Shown here: piece by piece, positions 45,149-58,500 of the stretch
How the letters are laid out: each line of letters starts with the position of its first letter
Position numbering within the stretch: the stretch's first letter is position 1
NCBI RefSeq assembly: GCF_000002985.6
Contig: NC_003280.10
Span: 8,242,501-8,306,500 of the forward strand
Length of the DNA: 64,000 nucleotides
Reading direction: 5' to 3'
DNA from: Caenorhabditis elegans
Lineage: Eukaryota > Nematoda > Chromadorea > Rhabditida > Rhabditidae
The notes under the pieces: model-generated
Database searches by the model: none
What the model saw: only the letters and a program-made list of their open reading frames with translations
What the model was told of the DNA's origin: nothing
Position numbers and translations under genes: made by a program

Positions 45149-48100
45149 CCTAATGAGTCCTGACAGAATACCGGCAGTATTCTGGGGTCTCATTAGGTTG
45201 TCGTTTCTTTTCTGAATCTCCACTCTTCCGAATGAGTCCTGACAGAATACCGACAGTATTTTGGGGTCTCATTAGGTTTCCTTTTCTTTTCTGAATCTCC
45301 ACTCTTCCTAATGAGTCCTGACAGAATACCAGCAGTATTTTGGGGTCTCATTAGGTTTCCTTTTCTTTTCTGAATCTCCACTCTTCCTAATGAGTCCTGA
45401 CCAAGGGTGTCAATTCCCGTTTCCCGTTTTTCCCATTGTCCCGTTTTTGGGGTGTTTTCACGGGAACGGGAATTCCCGTTTTCCCGTTTTTTAAATTTTC
45501 ACGGGAACGGGAATTCCCGTTTTCCCGTTTTAAAAATTTTCACGGGAACGGGAATTCCCGCTGTCCCGTTTTTTTTATTTTCACGGGAACGGGACAATTT
45601 TCCTCATGATTGTGTTTCAAATTTTAAAGTTCTGTTTTTGAGTTTTGTACCAAGACTTAAGTTCATGCAGATTAATGACTTACATGCAGTTTTTTTAATC
45701 AATTCGCCTCGAATACACTAAAATTTGCGCCAACTGTGCACTCTTTTTTTTTAAACCGCCCCGTTTGTCCCGTTTTTTGAGTGTTTCAAAAAAACGGGAA
45801 TTCCCGTTGTCCCGTTTTTAAAATTTTCACGGGAACGGGAATTCCCGTTGTCCCGTTTTTAAAATTTTCACGGGAACGGGAATTCCCGTTTTCCCGTTTT
45901 TGTAATTTTTACGGGACATTGACACCCTTGGTCCTGACAGAATACCGGCAGTATTTTGGGGTCACATTAGGTTTTAGTTTCGTTCCTGAATCTGCACTCT
46001 TCCTAATGAGTCCTGACAGAATACCGGCAGTATTTTGGTGTCTCATTAGGTTTCCTTTTCTTTTCTGAATCTCCACTCTTCCTGATGAGTCCTGACAGAA
46101 TACCGGCAGTATTTTGGGGTCTCATTAGGTCATAGTTTCGTTCCTGAATCTCCACTCTTCCTAATGAGTCCTGACAGAATACCGGCAGTATTTTGGGGTC
46201 TCATTAGGTTTTTGTTTCGTTCCTGAATCTGCACTCTTCCTAATGAGTCCTGAAAGAATACCGGCAGTATTTTGGGGTCTCATTAGGTTTCCTTTTCTTT
46301 TCTGAATCTCCACTCTTCCTTATGAGTCCTGACAGAATACCGGCAGTATTTTGGTGTCTCATTAGGTTTCCTTTTCTTTTCTGAATCTCCACTCTTCCTA
46401 ATGAGTCCTGACAGAATACCGGCAGTATTCTGGGGTCTCATTAGGTTGTCGTTTCTTTTCTGAATCTCCACTCTTCCTAATGAGTCCTGACAGAATACCG
46501 GCAGTATTTTGGGGTCTCATTAGGTTTCCTTTTCTTTTCTGAATCTCCACTCTTCCTAATGAGTCCTGACAGAATACCGGCAGTATTTTGGTGTCTCATT
46601 AGGTTTCCTTTTCTTTTCTGAATCTCCACTCTTCCTGATGAGTCCTGACAGAATACCGGCAGTATTTTGGGGTCTCATTAGGTCATTGTTTCTTTTCTGA
46701 ATCTGCACTCTTCCTAATGAGTCCTGACAGAATACCGGCAGTATTTTGGTGTCTCATTAGGTTTCCTTTTCTTTTCTGAATCTCCACTCTTCCTGATGAG
46801 TCCTGACAGAATACCGGCAGTATTTTGGGGTCTCATTAGGTCATAGTTTCGTTCCTGAATCTCCACTCTTCCTAATGAGTCCTGACAGAATACCGGCAGT
46901 ATTTTGGTGTCTCATTAGGTTTCCTTTTCTTTTCTGAATCTCCACTCTTCCTAATGAGTCCTGACAGAATACCGGCAGTATTCTGGGGTCTCATTAGGTT
47001 GTCGTTTCTTTTCTGAATCTCCACTCTTCCGAATGAGTCCTGACAGAATACCGGCAGTATTTTGGGGTCTCAATAGGTTTTAGTTTCGTTCCTGAATCTT
47101 CACTCTTCCTAATGAGTCCTGACAGAATACCGGCAGTATTTTGGTGTCTCATTAGGTTTCCTTTTCTTTTCTGAATCTCCACTCTTCCTAATGAGTCCTG
47201 ACAGAATACCGGCAGTATTCTGGGGTCTCATTAGGTTGTCGTTTCTTTTCTGAATCTCCACTCTTCCTAATGAGTCCTGACAGAATACCGGCAGTATTTT
47301 GGTGTCTCATTAGGTTTCCTTTTCTTTTCTGAATCTCCACTCTTCCTTATGAGTCCTGACAGAATACCGGCAGTATTCTGGGGTCTCAATAGGTTTTAGT
47401 TTCGTTCCTGAATCTGCACTCTTCATAATGAGTCTTGACAGAATACCGGCAGTATTTTGGGGTCTCATTAGGTCATAGTTTCGTTCCTGAATCTCCACTC
47501 TTCCTAATGAGTCCTGACAGAATACCGGCAGTATTTTGGTGTCTCATTAGGTTTCCTTTTCTTTTCTGAATCTCCACTCTTCCTAATGAGTCCTGACAGA
47601 ATACCGGCAGTATTTTGGGGTCTCAATAGGTTTTAGTTTCGTTCCTGAATCTCCACTCTTCCTAATGAGTCCTGACAGAATACCGGCAGTATTTTGGGGT
47701 CTCATTAGGTCATTGTTTCTTTTCTGAATCTCCACTCTTCCTAATGAGTCCTGACAGAATACCGGCAGTATTTTGGGGTCTCATTAGGTTTCCTTTTCTT
47801 TTCTGAATCTCCACTCTTCCTAATGAGTCCTGACAGAATACCGGCAGTATTTTGGGGTCTCATTAGGTCATTGTTTCTTTTCTGAATCTCCACTCTTCCT
47901 AATGAGTCCTGACAGAATACCGGCAGTATTTTGGGGTCTCATTAGGTCATAGTTTCGTTCCTGAATCTCCACTCTTCCTAATGAGTCCTGACAGAATACC
48001 GGCAGTATTTTGGGGTCTCATTAGGTCATAGTTTCGTTCCTGAATCTCCACTCTTCCTAATGAGTCCTGACAGAATACCGGCAGTATTTTGGTGTCTCAT

Positions 48101-50477
48101 TAGGTTTCCTTTTCTTTTCTGAATCTCCACTCTTCCTAATGAGTCCTGACAGAATACCGGCAGTATTTTGGGGTCTCATTAGGTCATAGTTTCGTTCCTG
48201 AATCTCCACTCTTCCTAATGAGTCCTGACAGAATACCGGCAGTATTTTGGGGTCTCATTAGGTTTCCTTTTCTTTTCTGAATCTCCACTCTTCCTAATGA
48301 GTCCTGACAGAATACCGGCAGTATTTTGGGGTCTCAATAGGTTTTAGTTTCGTTCCTGAATCTCCACTCTTCCTAATGAGTCCTGACAGAATACCGGCAG
48401 TATTTTGGGGTCTCATTAGGTCATTGTTTCTTTTCTGAATCTCCACTCTTCCTAATGAGTACTGACAGAATACCGGCAGTATTCTGGGGTCTCATTAGGT
48501 TTTAGTTTCGTTCCTGAATCTGCACTCTTCCTAATGAGTCCTGACAGAATACCGGCAGTATTCTGGGGTCTCATTAGGTTTTTGTTTCGTTCCTGAATCT
48601 GCACTCTTCCTAATGAGTCCTGAAAGAATACCGGCAGTATTTTGGGGTCTCATTAGGTTTCCTTTTCTTTTCTGAATCTGCACTCTTCCTAATGAGTCCT
48701 GACAGAATACCGGCAGTATTCTGGGGTCTCATTAAGTCATTGTTTCTTTTCTGAATCTCCACTCTTCCTAATGAGTCCTGACAGAATACCGGCAGTATTT
48801 TGGGGTCTCATTAGGTCATTGTTTCTTTTCTGAATCTCCACTCTTCCTAATGAGTCCTGACAGAATACCGGCAGTATTTTGGGGTCTCATTAGGTTTTAG
48901 TTTCGTTCCTGAATCTGCACTCTTCCTAATGAGTCCTGACAGAATACCGGCAGTATTTTGGGGTCTCATTAGGTCATAGTTTCGTTCCTGAATCTCCACT
49001 CTTCCTAATGAGTCCTGACAGAATACCGGCAGTATTTTGGGGTCTCATTAGGTTTTAGTTTCGTTCCTGAATCTGCACTCTTCCTAATGAGTCCTGACAG
49101 AATACCGGCAGTATTTTGGGGTCTCATTAGGTCATAGTTTCGTTCCTGAATCTCCACTCTTCCTAATGAGTCCTGACAGAATACCGGCAGTATTCTGGGG
49201 TCTCATTAGGTTTTAGTTTCGTTCCTGAATCTCCACTCTTCCTAATGAGTCCTGACAGAATACCGGCAGTATTTTGGTGTCTCATTAGGTTTCCTTTTCT
49301 TTTCTGAATCTCCACTCTTCCTTATGAGTCCTGACAGAATACCGGCAGTATTCTGGGGTCTCAATAGGTTTTAGTTTCGTTCCTGAATCTCCACTCTTCC
49401 TAATGAGTCCTGACAGAATACCGGCAGTATTCTGGGGTCTCATTAGGTTGTCGTTTCTTTTCTGAATCTCCACTCTTCCTAATGAGTCCTGACAGAATAC
49501 CGGCAGTATTTTGGGGTCTCATTAGGTTGTCGTTTCTTTTCTGAATTTCCACTCTTCCGAATGAGTCCTGACAGAATACCGGCAGTATTCTGGGGTCTCA
49601 ATAGGTTTTAGTTTCGTTCCTGAATCTCCACTCTTCCTAATGAGTCCTGACAGAATACCGGCAGTATTCTGGGGTCTCATTAGGTTGTCGTTTCTTTTCT
49701 GAATCTCCACTCTTCCTAATGAGTCCTGACAGAATACCGGCAGTATTTTGGGGTCTCATTACGTCATTGTTTCTTTTCTGAATCTCCACTCTTCCTAATG
49801 AGTCCTGACAGAATACCGGCAGTATTTTGGGGTCTCATTAGGTCATTGTTTCTTTTCTGAATCTCCACTCTTCCTAATGAGTCCTGACAGAATACCGGCA
49901 GTATTTTGGTGTCTCATTAGGTTTCCTTTTCTTTTCTGAATCTCCACTCTTCCTAATGAGTCCTGACAGAATACCGGCAGTATTCTGGGGTCTCATTAGG
50001 TTGTCGTTTCTTTTCTGAATTTCCACTCTTCCGAATGAGTCCTGACAGAATACCGGCAGTATTTTGGGGTCTCAATAGGTTTTAGTTTCGTTCCTGAATC
50101 TACACTCTTCCTAATGAGTCCTGACAGAATACCGGCAGTATTTTGGGGTCTCAATAGGTTTCCTTTTCTTTTCTGAATCTCCACTCTTCCTAATGAGTCC
50201 TGACAGAATACCGGCAGTATTCTGGGGTCTCATTAGGTTTTAGTTTGGTTCCTGAATCTCCACTCTTCCTAATGAGTCCTGACAGAATACCGGCAGTATT
50301 TTTGGGTCTCATTAGGGTTTCTGCTCATTTCTGAGTCTCCACTCTTTTTTTTGAGTCCTGACAAAATACAAGCAGTATTTTGGGTTCTCAGTAGGTTTTC
50401 GTTCGTTTCATTTCCGACTCTTCTCTTTTCCGTCTGAGTCCTGACAAAATACAGGCAGTATTTTGGGGTCTCTCACT
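45149..50477. repeat. Minisatellite, ~60 copies of a 79-bp hairpin-forming unit
   Basis: Unit of 79 bp, starting AATGAGTCCTGACAGAATAC and continuing through CGGCAGTATTTTGGGGTCTC, ATTAGG and a variable 14-nt block, then CTGAATCTCCACTCTTCCT. Copies differ mainly in the variable block (TTTCCTTTTCTTTT, TTGTCGTTTCTTTT, TCATAGTTTCGTTC, TTTTAGTTTCGTTC, TCATTGTTTCTTTT). CCTAATGAG and CTCATTAGG at the two ends of the core, with AATAC/GTATT nested inside, make each unit a potential hairpin. Copies decay after about 50300. A transposon interrupts the array at 45402-45930. Open frames of 62 codons recur simply because the unit lacks stops in one phase; they are not genes. Confidence 0.95.
45394..45938. 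mobile_element. hAT-like non-autonomous element inserted in the minisatellite
   Basis: Element proper is 45402-45930 (529 bp) with perfect 13-bp terminal inverted repeats CAAGGGTGTCAAT. The 8-bp GTCCTGAC is duplicated exactly at 45394-45401 and 45931-45938. Deleting the element and one copy restores a normal 79-bp unit, which proves insertion. The interior is a string of GGGAATTCCCGTT.. and CCCGTTTT.. repeats without coding capacity. The terminal sequence and 8-bp duplication are those of the hAT superfamily. Confidence 0.9.
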
Positions 50478-52562
50478 AGTTGTTCAGTTCATTAAAACCT
50501 ATTTTGGAACAATGAAAACTTTGAGGCAAAATGTAACTAAAAACCGTAATTCCAACTGTAAATTAGCAAGACTAATTTTTTCGTTTTTGTCTCCGTTTTT
50601 CGTCTTTCAAACGAACATTTTCTTGTTCGTTTTCAAAAATGAAATTTTGAAAAAGTCGTAGCCTAGGTGTAGGCGTATATTACGCAATAGCTTATTGAAC
50701 CAAATCTTGATACTTCCATTGTGCGATGTCTGTCTAGTCTTTCCTAATGAAATGAAAAATTAATGTTGTATTTCTATGCCACTTTTTTTTATGGAAATCT
50801 GTATAAAATTTATTTTGTTTATTTCCAAACTTGTTAATTTACTCAAGTGTAAAGTCTTCGAATTCTTTTATAGAAAAACCCTATTCATTCATATAGTTAT
50901 AGAACACATTTTTCTGCGTCACAAATTTTCATAAATCTGTGGTTATATGGCATCATAATCCTAATTGCTCGAGCAACGGAAGTACCAGAAGCTTCCAAAT
51001 CTCCGGAAGCGTGCCCCCACATAAAGAGATCTAGCAAGCATTCAAAAGTTCAGGTGCATAATTTTAGTAATGCATGACATTTCGAACGCACAGTTTTAGA
51101 ACTTTGATTGTTATTTTGTTCAATTCCGAAAATCCCATGAATATCGTTGAAAGGACTAGACCCGAATTCTCATGAATAGTGAAACTGACTTTATAGGGGA
51201 TGATTCTGAACGCTAATCACTTATTTCGCGTGGGCACTGCGGCAAAGTTCATTTGATGAAAATTCATGTAGACAAGAAAATAATAGAAATACGAGACGTA
51301 ATTACTTGCATCAACGATTATAACTACGGTTATAGATTCGGAGTCCTCTATTTTAGCATAAAGCATCAAACACTTATGTTTATGATGATATGAACTGACT
51401 GGTAGATCAATCATGATGATCAATCGGAAAGTATGAGTTTTACTAGGATCTAAAAAACAATTGTCAAATTTAATGTTTTATCTATTTATCAAAAAATTTT
51501 CTATAAATTTGGCACTTCCGTTTGAAGGCACATCCTTGTTTTATTTTTTGATAGTCTCACCACAATCTTAGCCATAATACACCCCACAAGCTTCTAATTT
51601 CACACATTTGTTCATTTGAAATAGAAAGATAAGTTTATGAAATTCCATAATTTCAACTGTAGAAATGAAGGATTCACCATTTAAAAAATGAGCACACAGT
51701 TGCAAGTTTTCGCGAACATGCGATATTGCACAAGATTTTTAGTAAAAATGATATTGCCGCATCTTCTCAACCAACTTTAGGAACTGTAGAAGTACTAATT
51801 CGGAAAGGTGCAAAAGTTGGCTGGATAATTCTGGCGAATTGAGCGTGGTTTGTAGGCCTCGCCTGCGTGGTTTGATTTATCTGAGAAACTCCGAGGCGTA
51901 TGTACATATACTTTTTTGTCGTTATAAACTATTTTATTCTGATTTTATTTCATTTATACTTCTTTAACAATTTCCACTGAATAATGGCATAATTATAAGT
52001 TTCTCAAAAGAAACCAACATGATAAAACGTTTTTAATGTTTTGAAAAAATCTGCCTTCATTATTTGTAAAATCATACCTTGGAGAGTTTCTGAAAATAAA
52101 GATGCTTCATAGAGAAACTTTGATTATGTTTTTCTTTGCTATTAGTTCAAAACATTATTAACAATAAGGTTTTCAAGTCTGACAAGCTGACACATTTTTT
52201 GAAACGTAGACTATTTGTATGTAGACACGGCTAGGGATTTGAATTTATACAGAAGATGCTCCGACATCACTTGCATCTGAAATTCCTGTTATCTCACTTT
52301 CCTGAAACTTCTTAAACTTGTTCTTAGATAAACAAGGCGTATCATTTATTGTCATCAACATCGAATTGGCTATGCGACACACAAGAGGGAATGAGTGAGA
52401 AGAGGACACAAACAATTTATAAAATTTCAAAAACAGTTGGCGCTGTACGGATTTGGAATGAGAAGAGGAAGAGAATGATGGTTTTTGGTGTGATTGACGA
52501 ATTAAGAGAAAAACAAGGAAAAAATCTCGGAAGACTAAAAATGTACACGAGTCGAGGTGGTT
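50478..52562. other. Intergenic, right of the minisatellite
   Basis: AT-rich. Short open frames (for example 51217-51423 minus, 52245-52430 minus, 52349-52606 plus) have no family features, and the last two overlap the 3' flank of the peptide gene. No supported gene. Confidence 0.4.
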
Positions 52563-52853
52563 TCACGCATAACTGGATCCCTTTGCAAGTCTGCGATATG
52601 AGTTGATGTCATGGGTGATGATGCAGTTAACAGGCGAAAAGAAACAATTCCGTGAGCCAGCCAATGCCCGAAGCTGACCTGATTTCTTCATTGTTGGTAA
52701 CTGCTCAACATAATAATAGTCTGGATTTATATACATTCTGAAAATAGAAATATTAACATTAATTTGAACTTTCCAATCAAAATGTAAACTTACGCATTTG
52801 AAACAAGAAGACAAGCGACGAGCAGGATGAAGAGCATCGAGATGCAGCTCATT
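52563..52853 (-). CDS. Small prepropeptide with allatostatin-C/somatostatin-like cyclic core
   Basis: Two exons on the minus strand (52853-52795 and 52737-52563), joined by a 57-bp intron with GTAAGT donor and TTTCAG acceptor, give 77 aa. Residues 1-20 (MSCISMLFILLVACLLVSNA) are a textbook signal peptide. Then comes a short Tyr-rich spacer (NPDYYYVEQL), a KK site (37-38), SGQLRALAGSR, the core NCFFSPVNC (50-58), IITHDINSY, an RR site (68-69) and a short tail. Cysteines 51 and 58 enclose six residues, FFSPVN. Insect allatostatin C is C-YFNPIS-C: same spacing, aromatic-Phe-x-Pro-hydrophobic order. Cleavage at KK and RR would release a 29-residue peptide; further trimming at Arg49 is possible. 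I know no symbol for it. The disulfide and receptor are inferred. Confidence 0.75.
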   Translation of the reverse strand, partial: NELHLDALHPARRLSSCFKCVSLHFDWKVQINVNISIFRMYINPDYYYVEQLPTMKKSGQLRALAGSRNCFFSPVNCIITHDINSYRRLAKGSSYA

Positions 52854-54860
52854 TTCCTCTTGTGAAGCACGGGGACACAAGCTGTGTGGATTACCTGTTA
52901 AATTAGCTCAATAATATGTCTACACGAAGAATAAAGAGTTTAGAGAAAAAAGAGAATAAAAGTAAAAAACGAGTCTGATGACTAAACTGGCAGAAGCATC
53001 ACCTAGCAGTTGCTTCGAACAAACACATGTGCCAAATACTTTACGCTTCAAGAGATAATTAACATGAATTTTTCAGTGAATCGTTATGATTAAACTTTGA
53101 TAAACTTTTTCCAAAACAGAGAAGGAATAAAAGTTGAATTCAAGAACCACAGGTCGAACATCTAAGCCAGGCTTTACAAAATCGGAATTATATTCTAAGC
53201 TGAAAAATTGAAGTGACAACTAGTGCCAACTGGTGCATAGGCATGATTTCTAAACATCTAGAGAATTTCCATAAAGCAAAATCCCATAAAGGCATAGACT
53301 TTATGAAAACAAGAAACGTAGCCATGTGAATTCAGAAAAGATGGAAGAAAGAGTCGCCTCGTATGTGCATAATAAAAATCGAAACATTCGACTTGACGTC
53401 GACAACATTGTAATTATAATCAGTAAAAAAAATAGGGAAAAGAGCGAATGATGATGAGCAAAAAGAACACAGTTGAGAACAATCCAAGTTCTCAGAATAC
53501 AAATGAGGAAGGAGTACAAAATCGGAAAAACGGAAAAAAGCGACGTAGAAATAAATTGTAAATACAAATAATTTATACTATGCTGCTTCAATTATGTCAA
53601 GTATTATTGGAAAAACGAACAACTGTACGTGCTAAATATTGGAACGTTGAATGTGCTGCAGATATAAATATTTATATATTTACTAAATTCTCAGGTGGGC
53701 GTCACCTTCTCGCCACGCCTTCAGCCTCTCCATCTGCTTCTCCGCCCCCTTTTCACATAATGGATGGGAAACGGGAGGAGAAGAGAGTATACTCGATCTT
53801 TGACATAGATAACAACACTAACTACTTATATGACGTTGCTCTGCGGTAGGGGACGGACTTCTGATGAGACTCGATGAGTCGTCAGGAGTACCGACAAAGC
53901 ACGTGGGAGACGCTTAATTGTTCCATTCTTTCATATTCCATTTTAAGTTATATGAACAAACGGAAAAAAATATATTTGTAACTGGAGCTTAAGAACTGAA
54001 AGCTAAAACAGAGAGGAGTTCAAAACTGGAGAAGTCTGGATTATAAAAATTGAAAACTCAGACTCCGAGCCATGCATCAAAGCATAAATAACCTAAGTAG
54101 TTGAATGAAAGGAAATCTGGAAATCTGAAGACAGGTGCATTACAACGTAACCTTCTAAAAATTACCTTCGCATTAGAATTATTGAAAGAAATCTGGAAAA
54201 TGAAAAAAAAACACACCGAGCTCGAAGTTTTCAGTCCGAGTTAATCGGGAATCTATTTCTATTATTGACTTGCGAAAACAAACGTTTCATCAGTTTAAAA
54301 ACCAAACCACTTCAGTACTTTCCAACGATATCAACTAACCTCATACTCTAATCAAATAAGTTTTCAATTTTGGTTCACCAGACTCATTCCTGAAACCAAA
54401 AAACCAAAAACAACTGCTTAATCATCATTAATTTCTTTATTCCTGTTTGAACAGCAGCAAATGGTTAAATGTTAACTGTCAAACATCGTTGGTTTGACGT
54501 TTAAAAGCCTGAAAATAACATTCTAAAAACGTTGAAATATTTGCAGGTGTCTATTGAAGGTGGGAATTTACTTACATAATTCAGATATGAAATTTGCACA
54601 TTTCGTCGGAAGTTTGCGTCACAATTTGGTCTAATTTGTTTCAAGCAATTTTTATCGAAATAGCTCATAGAAAATAATTCCTTTTTTATCGTGGTGGATA
54701 TGCTTTTATAGTTTTGAAAAAATTTGTAAGGTGCCTAGACAAAAGGTATAGTCTTAACGTAAAAGATAACAATCCAGTTTCATTTCCATACCCTTAACTT
54801 TTTTATATGAAATAGTATTTCTCCATCCACAGAACATACTCTGTCTGTTAATCTTCAACC
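52854..54860. other. Upstream region of the peptide gene
   Basis: AT-rich. It includes a short GC-rich patch (53695-53755) and a compact inverted repeat at 53854-53893. An 89-codon open frame at 53580-53849 has a low-complexity Ser/Pro run and no other features; not accepted as a gene. Confidence 0.35.
53854..53893. other. Compact hairpin
   Basis: An inner stem GACTC/GAGTC closes a 3-nt loop. An outer stem (CGG, ACTTCTGA against TCAGGAGT, CCG) pairs with one bulge and one G-T wobble. About 16 base pairs in 40 nt. It could be a structured RNA or a protein site; no family recognised. Confidence 0.3.
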
Positions 54861-55542
54861 ATTCGAATGAGGGGGTACGCTTTCTGTAGGGGAATTTTTC
54901 CGAAGATACGGTTTGTGTAGGGCAAAGTGCGGCGCGCCTTTTCGCAAGCCGCCGCGCACTTTTTTTCGTATTTATTTATTCTCTACTTTCAACAGGAAAT
55001 TTCGAACGGAATTACATTAGAACAAGTCAGGATACGAATTTGCTGCAAAATATTGAAAGATAAAGAAAGAAAGTTTGATTATGATCATTTTTCTAATTAA
55101 TTTATGATCAATTGTTAATTTTATGTTCCCATTTGAATCCTTTCGGTCGAATAATAAATAAATTATATTTTTTCATCGGTTGGCTCCAGTTGGATCACTT
55201 TCAGCGTCGAGTTCTTCCTATCCTGACAACAAATCACTTATCTTCGGAAACTTTTTGATGGTTTGACTGAAAAATCAATAAAAAACACTGTTTCTGGCGT
55301 TAAAAGCTCTGAAACCATTAGTATTAACGTTTAATTTGGCTCAAATAAAGCAATTCCATTGATTAACAATTTAATTCTCAATAAAATTCGTTTTTCAACG
55401 AATTCCGTTCGAAACTTCCTGTTGAAAATAAATATGAATAAAAGTGCGCGGCGGCTTGCGAAAAGGCGCGCCGCACATTGCCCTACACAAACCGTATCTT
55501 CGGAAAAATTCCCCTACAGAAAACGTACCCCCTCATTCGAAT
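54861..55542. mobile_element. Inverted-repeat transposon with ~99-bp near-identical arms and 8-bp duplication
   Basis: Element proper is 54869-55534 (666 bp). The two ~99-bp arms starting GAGGGGGTACG differ at about three positions. They include a GC-rich segment (GTGCGGCGCGCC and GCCGCCGCGCAC). ATTCGAAT flanks both ends (54861-54868 and 55535-55542). No transposase is visible in the AT-rich middle. The high arm identity suggests a young insertion or gene conversion. Confidence 0.8.
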
Positions 55543-58500
55543 AGATTATGAATATTTTTTAGATCCTCATGTGACAAAAGTAATCCTTCCGTGTATTATT
55601 GTCATCAAAATCTTCAGAAATAAGTTTCAAAAATAGAAACAATCTGTGCCCTTTTATCTCCTCGCAAACCTAGAAAATCACTCAGAAAGCTTAATTCATC
55701 ATTGTAGGATTAGACTACTATATGCAGAAGTACTTTGTCTTTTTTATTCTTCTTTATGTACCAAAGTTAGTCATATTTAATTTTAACGTCAGTGTCTTAT
55801 CGTTAACGTGTTTGTCTGCAGAAAAGTGAATTTGGTGAAGAATATATGAATGAGCAGAGTATTTTTAATGAATGAAATGATTCATTGAAAAAAACAAAGA
55901 GGAAACAAAGTGTACTCAGTTCAAGATCTCGGTAATGGGGGAAAACGTAAACGAAAATAACAATGAGTGGGAGGACAGAAAGGTTAATTTTGGAATTTCT
56001 TGCTTCAGGTCTCAACTCAGGAAACGATAACAAGAAAGTCTCAGGGTTTCAATTTTCAATAATGCACTTCATCTTGTAGAAAATTATTGATTTAATCGAA
56101 AAATTCAATTTGATCTGTTTCTACTAGCACATCTACATACTTACTTCATTGGTCTTTAATGTAGACTGACCCCCTAATTTTTCACTCATTACTAAATAAA
56201 TTATCGAGAGTCCAATTTACTTTTTTTGCAAGCATCTAGGCAGTCGTCGGTAGCTCTTGTCTTATCGTGCCTACATGAATTATTTATTTTTTTAGATTTA
56301 TACAATTGAATGCTTTTTTCATTAAGGTACATAGGTTCTTATTGTACGATTATAGTACATGCTTTACCAGAAAACTTTACTTTTCCCTACGTAAAATCCG
56401 GGTTTCTAGACAACAAAAGCACAAAACTAAAAAGTCAAATGAGTTTTCATCTAAAAGTTTTCATTATTTCTGCCAGAAGATCTCATTTATCGTTTTCAAT
56501 CATCATTATCTTCATCTTTTTGTCTGGATAGAAGTGTCGGAAAGAAACGAAAAAAACGTAGGATTCAAGACACATAAGGAACCAATAATCAGAAAAAGGA
56601 GCTTTTTTTTTATGGGAATCACTGAATTGGAAATGGTTTTCCGTTTTTAGTGCAACACACGAAATGTGCAAAAAGAAACAAGGAATGTTTCAAAAAATAT
56701 TTATTATTGATTTAAAATTTAGGAATTTCCAGGAACTTTTCTATATTTTAAAAATATAAACTAACAGACTTGGACCGTGGAGAAAACAAATTTCAAGCAG
56801 GAGATTGAATAGAACTTCAAAAATATTCAAAACTGGGACCATTTTTTTATTGTTTAGTTTTTCAACTGAGCACAATGAAAAATAGCGTTGAATAGCCATC
56901 AACTTCCCGGTTTTCAAAATTCAACCACTTATTTTAAAGAAAGTAATTTTTAAGTTTTGATGTTTGAATTTGAAATAAGAAATATATTAACTGTTTCGTA
57001 TGTAGAATAATTTCGTTTTCAAGTAAGATTTGAGCATCCATCGACAAAGTGACTACGTACTTTGAAAATTGAAAAAAAATTGGTGTACCCGAAAAACAAT
57101 AGAAAAACGCTAATCATACTCAAAACGCGTCATTGAAATAAACAAACTGTGAATTATTTCTGAAAATACGCATATTATCAAAGTTTAGCACTTATTGTTG
57201 TGCTCAAGGTTGAAGGGAAAATAAAAAATATACAGCTGTAAAAATGTAAGATTTATGACGACATTTATTAAAGCATTGAGGTACAAAAATACGTTTTACC
57301 TCAATTTATATGGGGTTACGGGTGAAATTAAAACAAATTAAAACTTAAAACCCTCGAAATTTATTAACAAACGAAACTTGAAGATCTTGATTTTTTTTCT
57401 TGAAAATCACACTTTGTTTTATCTCAGGAAGCGAGTTGAATTGTAACTTTAAATAATTAAATAACAAAAATTTGCTGGAAATTTTGAAGTATTTGCAATT
57501 TTCAAAATCAGACAATATGAAAACGCTCAACTAAAGTAAATTAACTACTAGGAAAACGATGACCTCACTGTTGCAAAGTAAGCCAATTATCATATATGGT
57601 TAGGTAACTTAGTTCATGACCTCTCAGTTTTTCTTTAACCTTTGTTGTGTAAATTTAACAAAAAAATAACACAACAAAAGTTTTAGAATTATATTTTTCT
57701 ATATCTTATTAAAAATCACAAATTTGCTGAATTTACTTTAAAAGTTACAATTCAAGTGGTTTTTTGAACAACTCTTGAATAAATTTTTCGGTAATTAAGT
57801 TGTCTCTGACTCATAAGTTCTACGAAACATTTTATCGAGAAATTTGTTCCAAGAATCAAAAATAAAATCTATGATGTGTGTCTATAGGAATGGTGCATCC
57901 CAGAAAGTAAGACATATAAGATTAACATGGATGAGCAGGGATTGGAGTCCTTGCTCAAACTCTCTTACAAAATCTGCAAAATTCTTTCGTTAAATGATTG
58001 CTTTCAATGTTTCAAAAACTTGTCAAACTGTCCCATTTTATTTGATCTCTAAATTTTGCGGTCAAGTAACTATCTGATAACAATTATACAAACTTTACGC
58101 AACTTTTGGAAATCAACATTTGAAAAAGTTAGTTAGAAAATATGATTGTAGAAAGCGAAGAATGTAATTTTCTGTGCAGTTAATATCTAATGATAATTTT
58201 TGTGAAATTAAACAATTTCCTCGACCACTATGCTCGAAGTCGTGGCTAGACCCACCCATTAAAAAAGTGTGTGTCTTTCGTGAAGAACGGACTTCTTTGT
58301 GAATATCTTACAAAGATTTAAAAATGATAAGCTTTAAAATTGAGTGGGATGTTTCATCTGTCTGCTGGTCGCTTTTCGGTCTAAATCACGAATCATGCTC
58401 ATAAAATGACGGCAGAAATCAGATTCAAAACCTTAAAGCTTCTTAGAAACCAAGAACAGAATGTGACGCTTAAAATGGCAAAAAAAGTCATGCTGACGAT

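Follow-up and report, generated by a model that had tools for sequence, protein, structure and literature searches.

Does a small peptide gene in the Caenorhabditis elegans genome encode the worm's counterpart of allatostatin C (AstC) and somatostatin? The window that we analysed is a stretch of 64,000 nucleotides (NC_003280.10, positions 8,242,501 to 8,306,500), for which a sequence-only reading had proposed a two-exon gene with a 77-residue product and had taken it to be the nematode member of that ligand family. The 77-aa, two-exon gene was borne out on the minus strand at 52852-52563, with a one-base shift of its start: the reading had begun at 52853, the ATG lies at 52852 and the intron occupies 52793-52738, and the end of the coding sequence at 52563 agrees. 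The coding sequence comprises 234 nt in exons of 59 and 175 nt and translates to 77 aa. The features of the locus, in window coordinates, are:

52794..52852, minus strand: coding exon 1, with the ATG, the hydrophobic leader MSCISMLFILLVACLLVSN (delimited by eye) and two bases of the Ala20 codon
52738..52793, minus strand: intron of 56 nt, GTAAGT...TTTTCAG, GT-AG, phase 2
52563..52737, minus strand: coding exon 2, with spacer, KK, Cys-loop peptide, RR, short tail and stop
52596..52682, minus strand: predicted mature peptide, residues 39-67, SGQLRALAGSRNCFFSPVNCIITHDINSY, with a putative disulfide C51-C58
52688-52683 and 52595-52590, minus strand: KK37-38 and RR68-69, predicted processing sites
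52623..52646, minus strand: loop codons CFFSPVNC (G000:C2:8295123-8295146:-)
52895..52900, minus strand: possible 5' splice or trans-splice acceptor, TTTAACAG followed by GTAATCC, 42 nt before the ATG
52345..52350, minus strand: AATAAA, candidate poly(A) signal, ~210 nt past the stop

The precursor consists of a leader that is hydrophobic by eye and carries S-N-A before the assumed cut, followed by MYINPDYYYVEQLPTM, KK, SGQLRALAGSRNCFFSPVNCIITHDINSY, RR and LAKGSSYA. All of the residues to which the reading had pointed (KK37-38, C51, P55, C58 and RR68-69) are present in the translation, with six residues between C51 and C58 and an FxP core (F53-S54-P55) in the loop. The peptide occurs in a single copy, as residues 39-67 of 77; nine residues follow C58, then RR and a tail of 8 aa, and the C-terminal placement of AstC-type peptides is only partly reproduced. 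Pfam returned no match for the precursor, and the 29-aa predicted peptide, used alone as the query, had none in the PDB. RNA folding was unremarkable for this gene (z -0.35), and codon usage did not mark exon 2 as coding, as 618 of 1873 open non-coding stretches scored as high. Uninformative codon usage is what one might see in a chance ORF or in a dead gene without a product; against such a reading, the splice consensus and frame of the window gene are intact, and its relatives, described below, bear on the same point.

To place the gene, we searched the whole genome (100,286,401 bp, 7 contigs). The loop codons of CFFSPVNC, with a TCN serine, had a single match, and a protein search recovered the two exons of the window gene and one other place, on C4 (RNCFFSPMGC, E=0.0196). 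The broader pattern C-x-F-S-P-x-x-C, again with a TCN serine, gave 59 matches compared with 32 for the reversed control, so common a motif that the loop pattern alone is weak evidence and would, taken by itself, sit well with a chance ORF. The reading frame of the loop was printed for all 59 matches. Ten were kept, and 49 were set aside by the look of this frame rather than by a systematic search for leader exons. Those kept were the window gene, seven other genes with a [RK]NC[FY]FSPxxC loop, a gene at C2:9.775 Mb with the loop RRCIFSPIHC, and NLP-99. The residues [RK]N stand directly before the first Cys in nine of the 59 matches, eight of them in kept genes and one in a rejected match (L065), and this feature is independent of the search pattern. 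Two pattern matches, L053 and L065, were rejected on closer look.

Three variants of the pattern were also run. Requiring N before the Cys gave 54 matches against 11 reversed, many of them near-identical, repeat-like words, and added RNCFFTPVQC on C6 (L071), the ninth of the close paralogs. A pattern with N or an AGY serine in the loop showed no excess (14 matches versus 18 reversed); four of the 14 were fetched, of which three looked like chance and one was an AstC-like gene on C1. An aromatic-loop pattern likewise showed no excess (26 versus 34 reversed) and added no gene. Eight further places were fetched from the N-before-Cys and aromatic-loop patterns, with L071 the one kept, and the rest of these matches, unless already known, were judged on their letters alone, so the family count is a lower bound. 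The genome thus holds at least nine scattered genes whose loop reads [RK]-N-C-[FY]-F-[ST]-P-x-x-C, the window gene among them; this count leaves out NLP-99 and the C2:9.775 Mb gene (RRCIFSPIHCLF), whose introns are in phase 2 and then phase 1. The single match in a bacterial and archaeal collection (L079), at first taken for nematode contamination, was due to chance, since it lies on a bacterial contig and has W at the place of the second Cys. Pfam gave nothing relevant for the paralog at C4:13.15 Mb (best E 0.058, below the cut-off) and no match for four further precursors including NLP-99, six of the 12 precursors having been scanned in all. The nine genes were not found by their loop letters in open-licence main texts, where the relevant paper found was that on NLP-99; limited to such texts, this search does not show the family to be unpublished or unannotated.

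The spliced models of 12 genes contained no internal stops. In all nine [RK]NC gene models, a phase-2 intron lies after the leader exon and before the loop exon, an agreement that is partly guided, since exons were picked by eye with the frame in mind; the choice of phase is narrowed by the acceptor sites that lie immediately 5' of the loop exons. Neither the window gene nor its eight close paralogs have an N-terminal phase-0 intron. Most of the nine genes have tails after the second Cys, long in several, and the dibasic site before the loop is missing in three of the nine precursors. Three loop-peptide genes are clustered within ~6 kb at C6:8.218-8.225 Mb, on both strands (L051, C6:8215500-8223500; L071, C6:8224300-8225300). 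The two C4 paralogs (L006, 817-1641; L043, minus strand) resemble each other in the tail that follows the loop (LSADFRN and LFSDFRN), which is perhaps a second conserved peptide. An intron of the C4:13.15 Mb gene contains a Lys-Pro-rich possible alternative exon with its own stop (L006, 921-1071).

We next asked how far these resemblances exceed what the searches had built in. Leaving the window gene out, we built a profile from eight loop genes, of which seven are [RK]NC genes and one is the AstC-like gene on C1. Among the 2756 window ORFs of at least 15 aa, it picked out the window ORF at E=1.3e-6, followed by the next at 0.061, a score that is partly circular because most of the profile genes had been found through the pattern of the window loop itself. 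For the same reason, the shared C, F, S, P and C are partly a product of selection: the search pattern was derived from the window loop. Across the 12-codon cores of the nine genes, pairwise mismatch at codon positions 1, 2 and 3 was 0.241, 0.102 and 0.581. Divergence is dominated by wobble positions, indicating selection on the protein, with the qualification that picking loops by their residues also favours such a mismatch at the fixed residues. Kinship within the nine genes is well supported, and so is the membership of the window gene in the family. Given the profile score, partly circular as it is, the wobble-dominated divergence across paralogs and the intact gene model, we regard a chance ORF or a dead gene as highly improbable.

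The link from this family to AstC was examined in the same manner. A profile of all nine genes scored the C1 AstC-like gene at E=0.17 and the C2:9.775 Mb gene at 0.03, and gave no match to NLP-99 up to E=1; it was run on ORFs of 60 mostly motif-selected loci, in which the best chance-looking ORF reached 0.014. Since the C1 gene and NLP-99 are not separated by this profile, the kinship of the nine with AstC is suggestive only. It rests on the loop pattern and the intron, the profile contributing no independent sequence statistics.

The C1 gene, at 5.854 Mb, was the one AstC-like precursor among the fetched N/AGY-serine matches. It encodes MVKFF...IERNRCFFNPITCY and ends in ERNRCFFNPITCY before the stop, with the loop CFFNPITC-Y and introns in phase 0 and then phase 2. 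The AstC-type gene of C. elegans is described as having one phase-0 and one phase-2 intron (Zhang et al. 2020, PMC7536072), and from this fitting gene plan the C1 gene is probably the 'ASTC' of that paper. Like the window gene, it has a C-x-F-x-P-x-x-C ring and a loop exon preceded by a phase-2 intron; unlike it, it ends in CY and a stop, carries an N-terminal phase-0 intron, has N in place of the loop S and has R directly before the Cys. A tRNA-like stretch was noticed by eye in the first intron of this gene, at the boundary of L080 and L070; ARAGORN found no tRNA in either piece, the stretch spanning the cut between them.

A second comparison is offered by NLP-99 (T05A8.3; PMC9881375), reported as the C. 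elegans ortholog of somatostatin and AstC with NPR-16 as its receptor (Park et al. 2026, PMC13082328), and whose synthetic peptide has a C9-C16 ring (PMC13082328). It shares with the window gene a leader, a single C-x-F-S-P-x-x-C loop and dibasic sites. It differs in its loop, CEFSPLSC, which is followed by LL and KRRRR, and in having a single, phase-0 intron; 5 of 12 core residues are in common.

Beyond the worm, the marks given for protostome AstC are an FxP core and cysteines spaced by six residues; in vertebrate somatostatin and cortistatin, which belong to the same class of disulfide-ring peptides, ten residues separate the cysteines, and FWK stands in place of FxP (PMC7536072). An N-terminal phase-0 intron is apparently conserved in somatostatin and AstC genes and is present in Drosophila, and a C-terminal phase-2 intron occurs in the AstC genes of Drosophila and C. 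elegans (PMC7536072). The window gene has the ring size, the FxP core and the phase-2 intron, and, in contrast to the Drosophila gene, it has no phase-0 intron. AstC peptides stop shortly past the second Cys, in arthropods one residue beyond it, whereas the window peptide continues for nine residues before RR; a 'C-terminal PISCF motif' is named for arthropod AstC (PMC11959706). Because the phase-0 intron is missing and the C-terminal placement is partial, we filed the window gene as AstC-like and not as an established AstC ortholog.

These comparisons answer the question with which we began. That the locus is an AstC-like, small two-exon gene with a C-x-F-x-P-x-x-C loop and the layout of a secreted peptide has held up; that it is 'the' nematode member has not. 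Its loop and cysteine spacing would fit a single nematode ortholog of AstC and somatostatin, yet NLP-99 and NPR-16 have already been published in this role (PMC13082328), the C1 gene suits the canonical AstC gene plan much better, and at least eight close paralogs contradict the uniqueness that such an ortholog implies. With at least nine related genes, the window gene is one of many and not the worm's single AstC or somatostatin counterpart, and we consider the single-ortholog proposal very improbable.

A different possibility is that the family consists of nematode cyclic secreted peptides whose loop arose independently of AstC, and whose action lies at other receptors, in defence or in the gonad. 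Several observations point that way: the profile does not clearly connect the nine genes with either the AstC-like gene or NLP-99, they do not have the phase-0 intron, several of them have long tails past the second Cys, and the starfish FxP-type peptide ArSS1 did not activate somatostatin/AstC receptors (PMC7536072). Conversely, they match the AstC-like gene in ring size, in the FxP core and in having a phase-2 intron ahead of the loop exon, and we judge an independent origin unlikely. We favour, at a probability of roughly two in three, an expanded AstC-like family of cyclic neuropeptides of which the window gene encodes one secreted preprohormone. Under this expanded-family reading, the nine or more paralogs would have multiplied in this lineage from an AstC-type gene, with the phase-2 intron upstream of the loop exon retained.

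AstC and NLP-99 suggest how the product would be made and act: the precursor, if expressed, would enter the secretory pathway and lose its leader. Cuts at KK and RR would then free the 29-residue peptide, in which a disulfide between C51 and C58 may form a ring whose turn carries F-x-P, as it does in allatostatin C. The F-S-P turn could engage a somatostatin/AstC-like GPCR, of which the worm has several; the one engaged would probably be Gi/o-coupled like NPR-16, and the peptide would most likely serve as a neuropeptide or hormone.

Candidate receptors are several. Receptor survey tables list six in C. elegans, two of eight being placed nearer galanin receptors, and the nearest C. elegans counterpart of the insect and human receptors is npr-24. 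In an early SSTR homolog from C. elegans, the TM7 signature of vertebrates is missing, and its ligands may be different ones (PMC3524798). For two receptors, ligands of other kinds have been proposed: nlp-3 for npr-17, and endocannabinoids for NPR-32 (PMC9674138). NPR-16 is described as having NLP-99 for its sole known activator; the nlp-99 phenotypes are weaker than those of npr-16, and the authors suggest that redundancy may exist (PMC13082328). We tentatively raise the possibility that at least nine unrecognised AstC-like cyclic neuropeptides exist beside NLP-99 and the canonical AstC, the ligands having multiplied together with an enlarged set of somatostatin-like receptors (npr-24, npr-18, T02E9.1 and others). 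If so, a family of nine or more somatostatin/AstC-class ligands would have gone unnoticed in the best-mapped nervous system. The nine genes would be direct candidates for the worm's somatostatin-like receptors and for the redundancy suspected by the NLP-99 authors, and would offer a test case for the joint expansion of ligand and receptor families.

The remaining observations concern the surroundings of the gene. Its neighbours in the window include a pyridoxal-dependent decarboxylase, a TCP-1 chaperonin and a GNL3L/Grn1-type GTPase, and Rfam and tRNA scans of the 64-kb window were empty. A 79-bp minisatellite of ~57 copies with 91% match (45931-50472) lies in the gap that separates the peptide gene from the neighbouring gene region. 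A short array of the same unit is found at 45149-45401, and 41-bp arrays are found at 45455-45594 and 45793-45916. About 2 kb upstream of the peptide gene is a 129-nt inverted repeat (54849-54977 and 55426-55554), whose arms are 93% complementary and 448 nt apart and which looks like a fold-back element.
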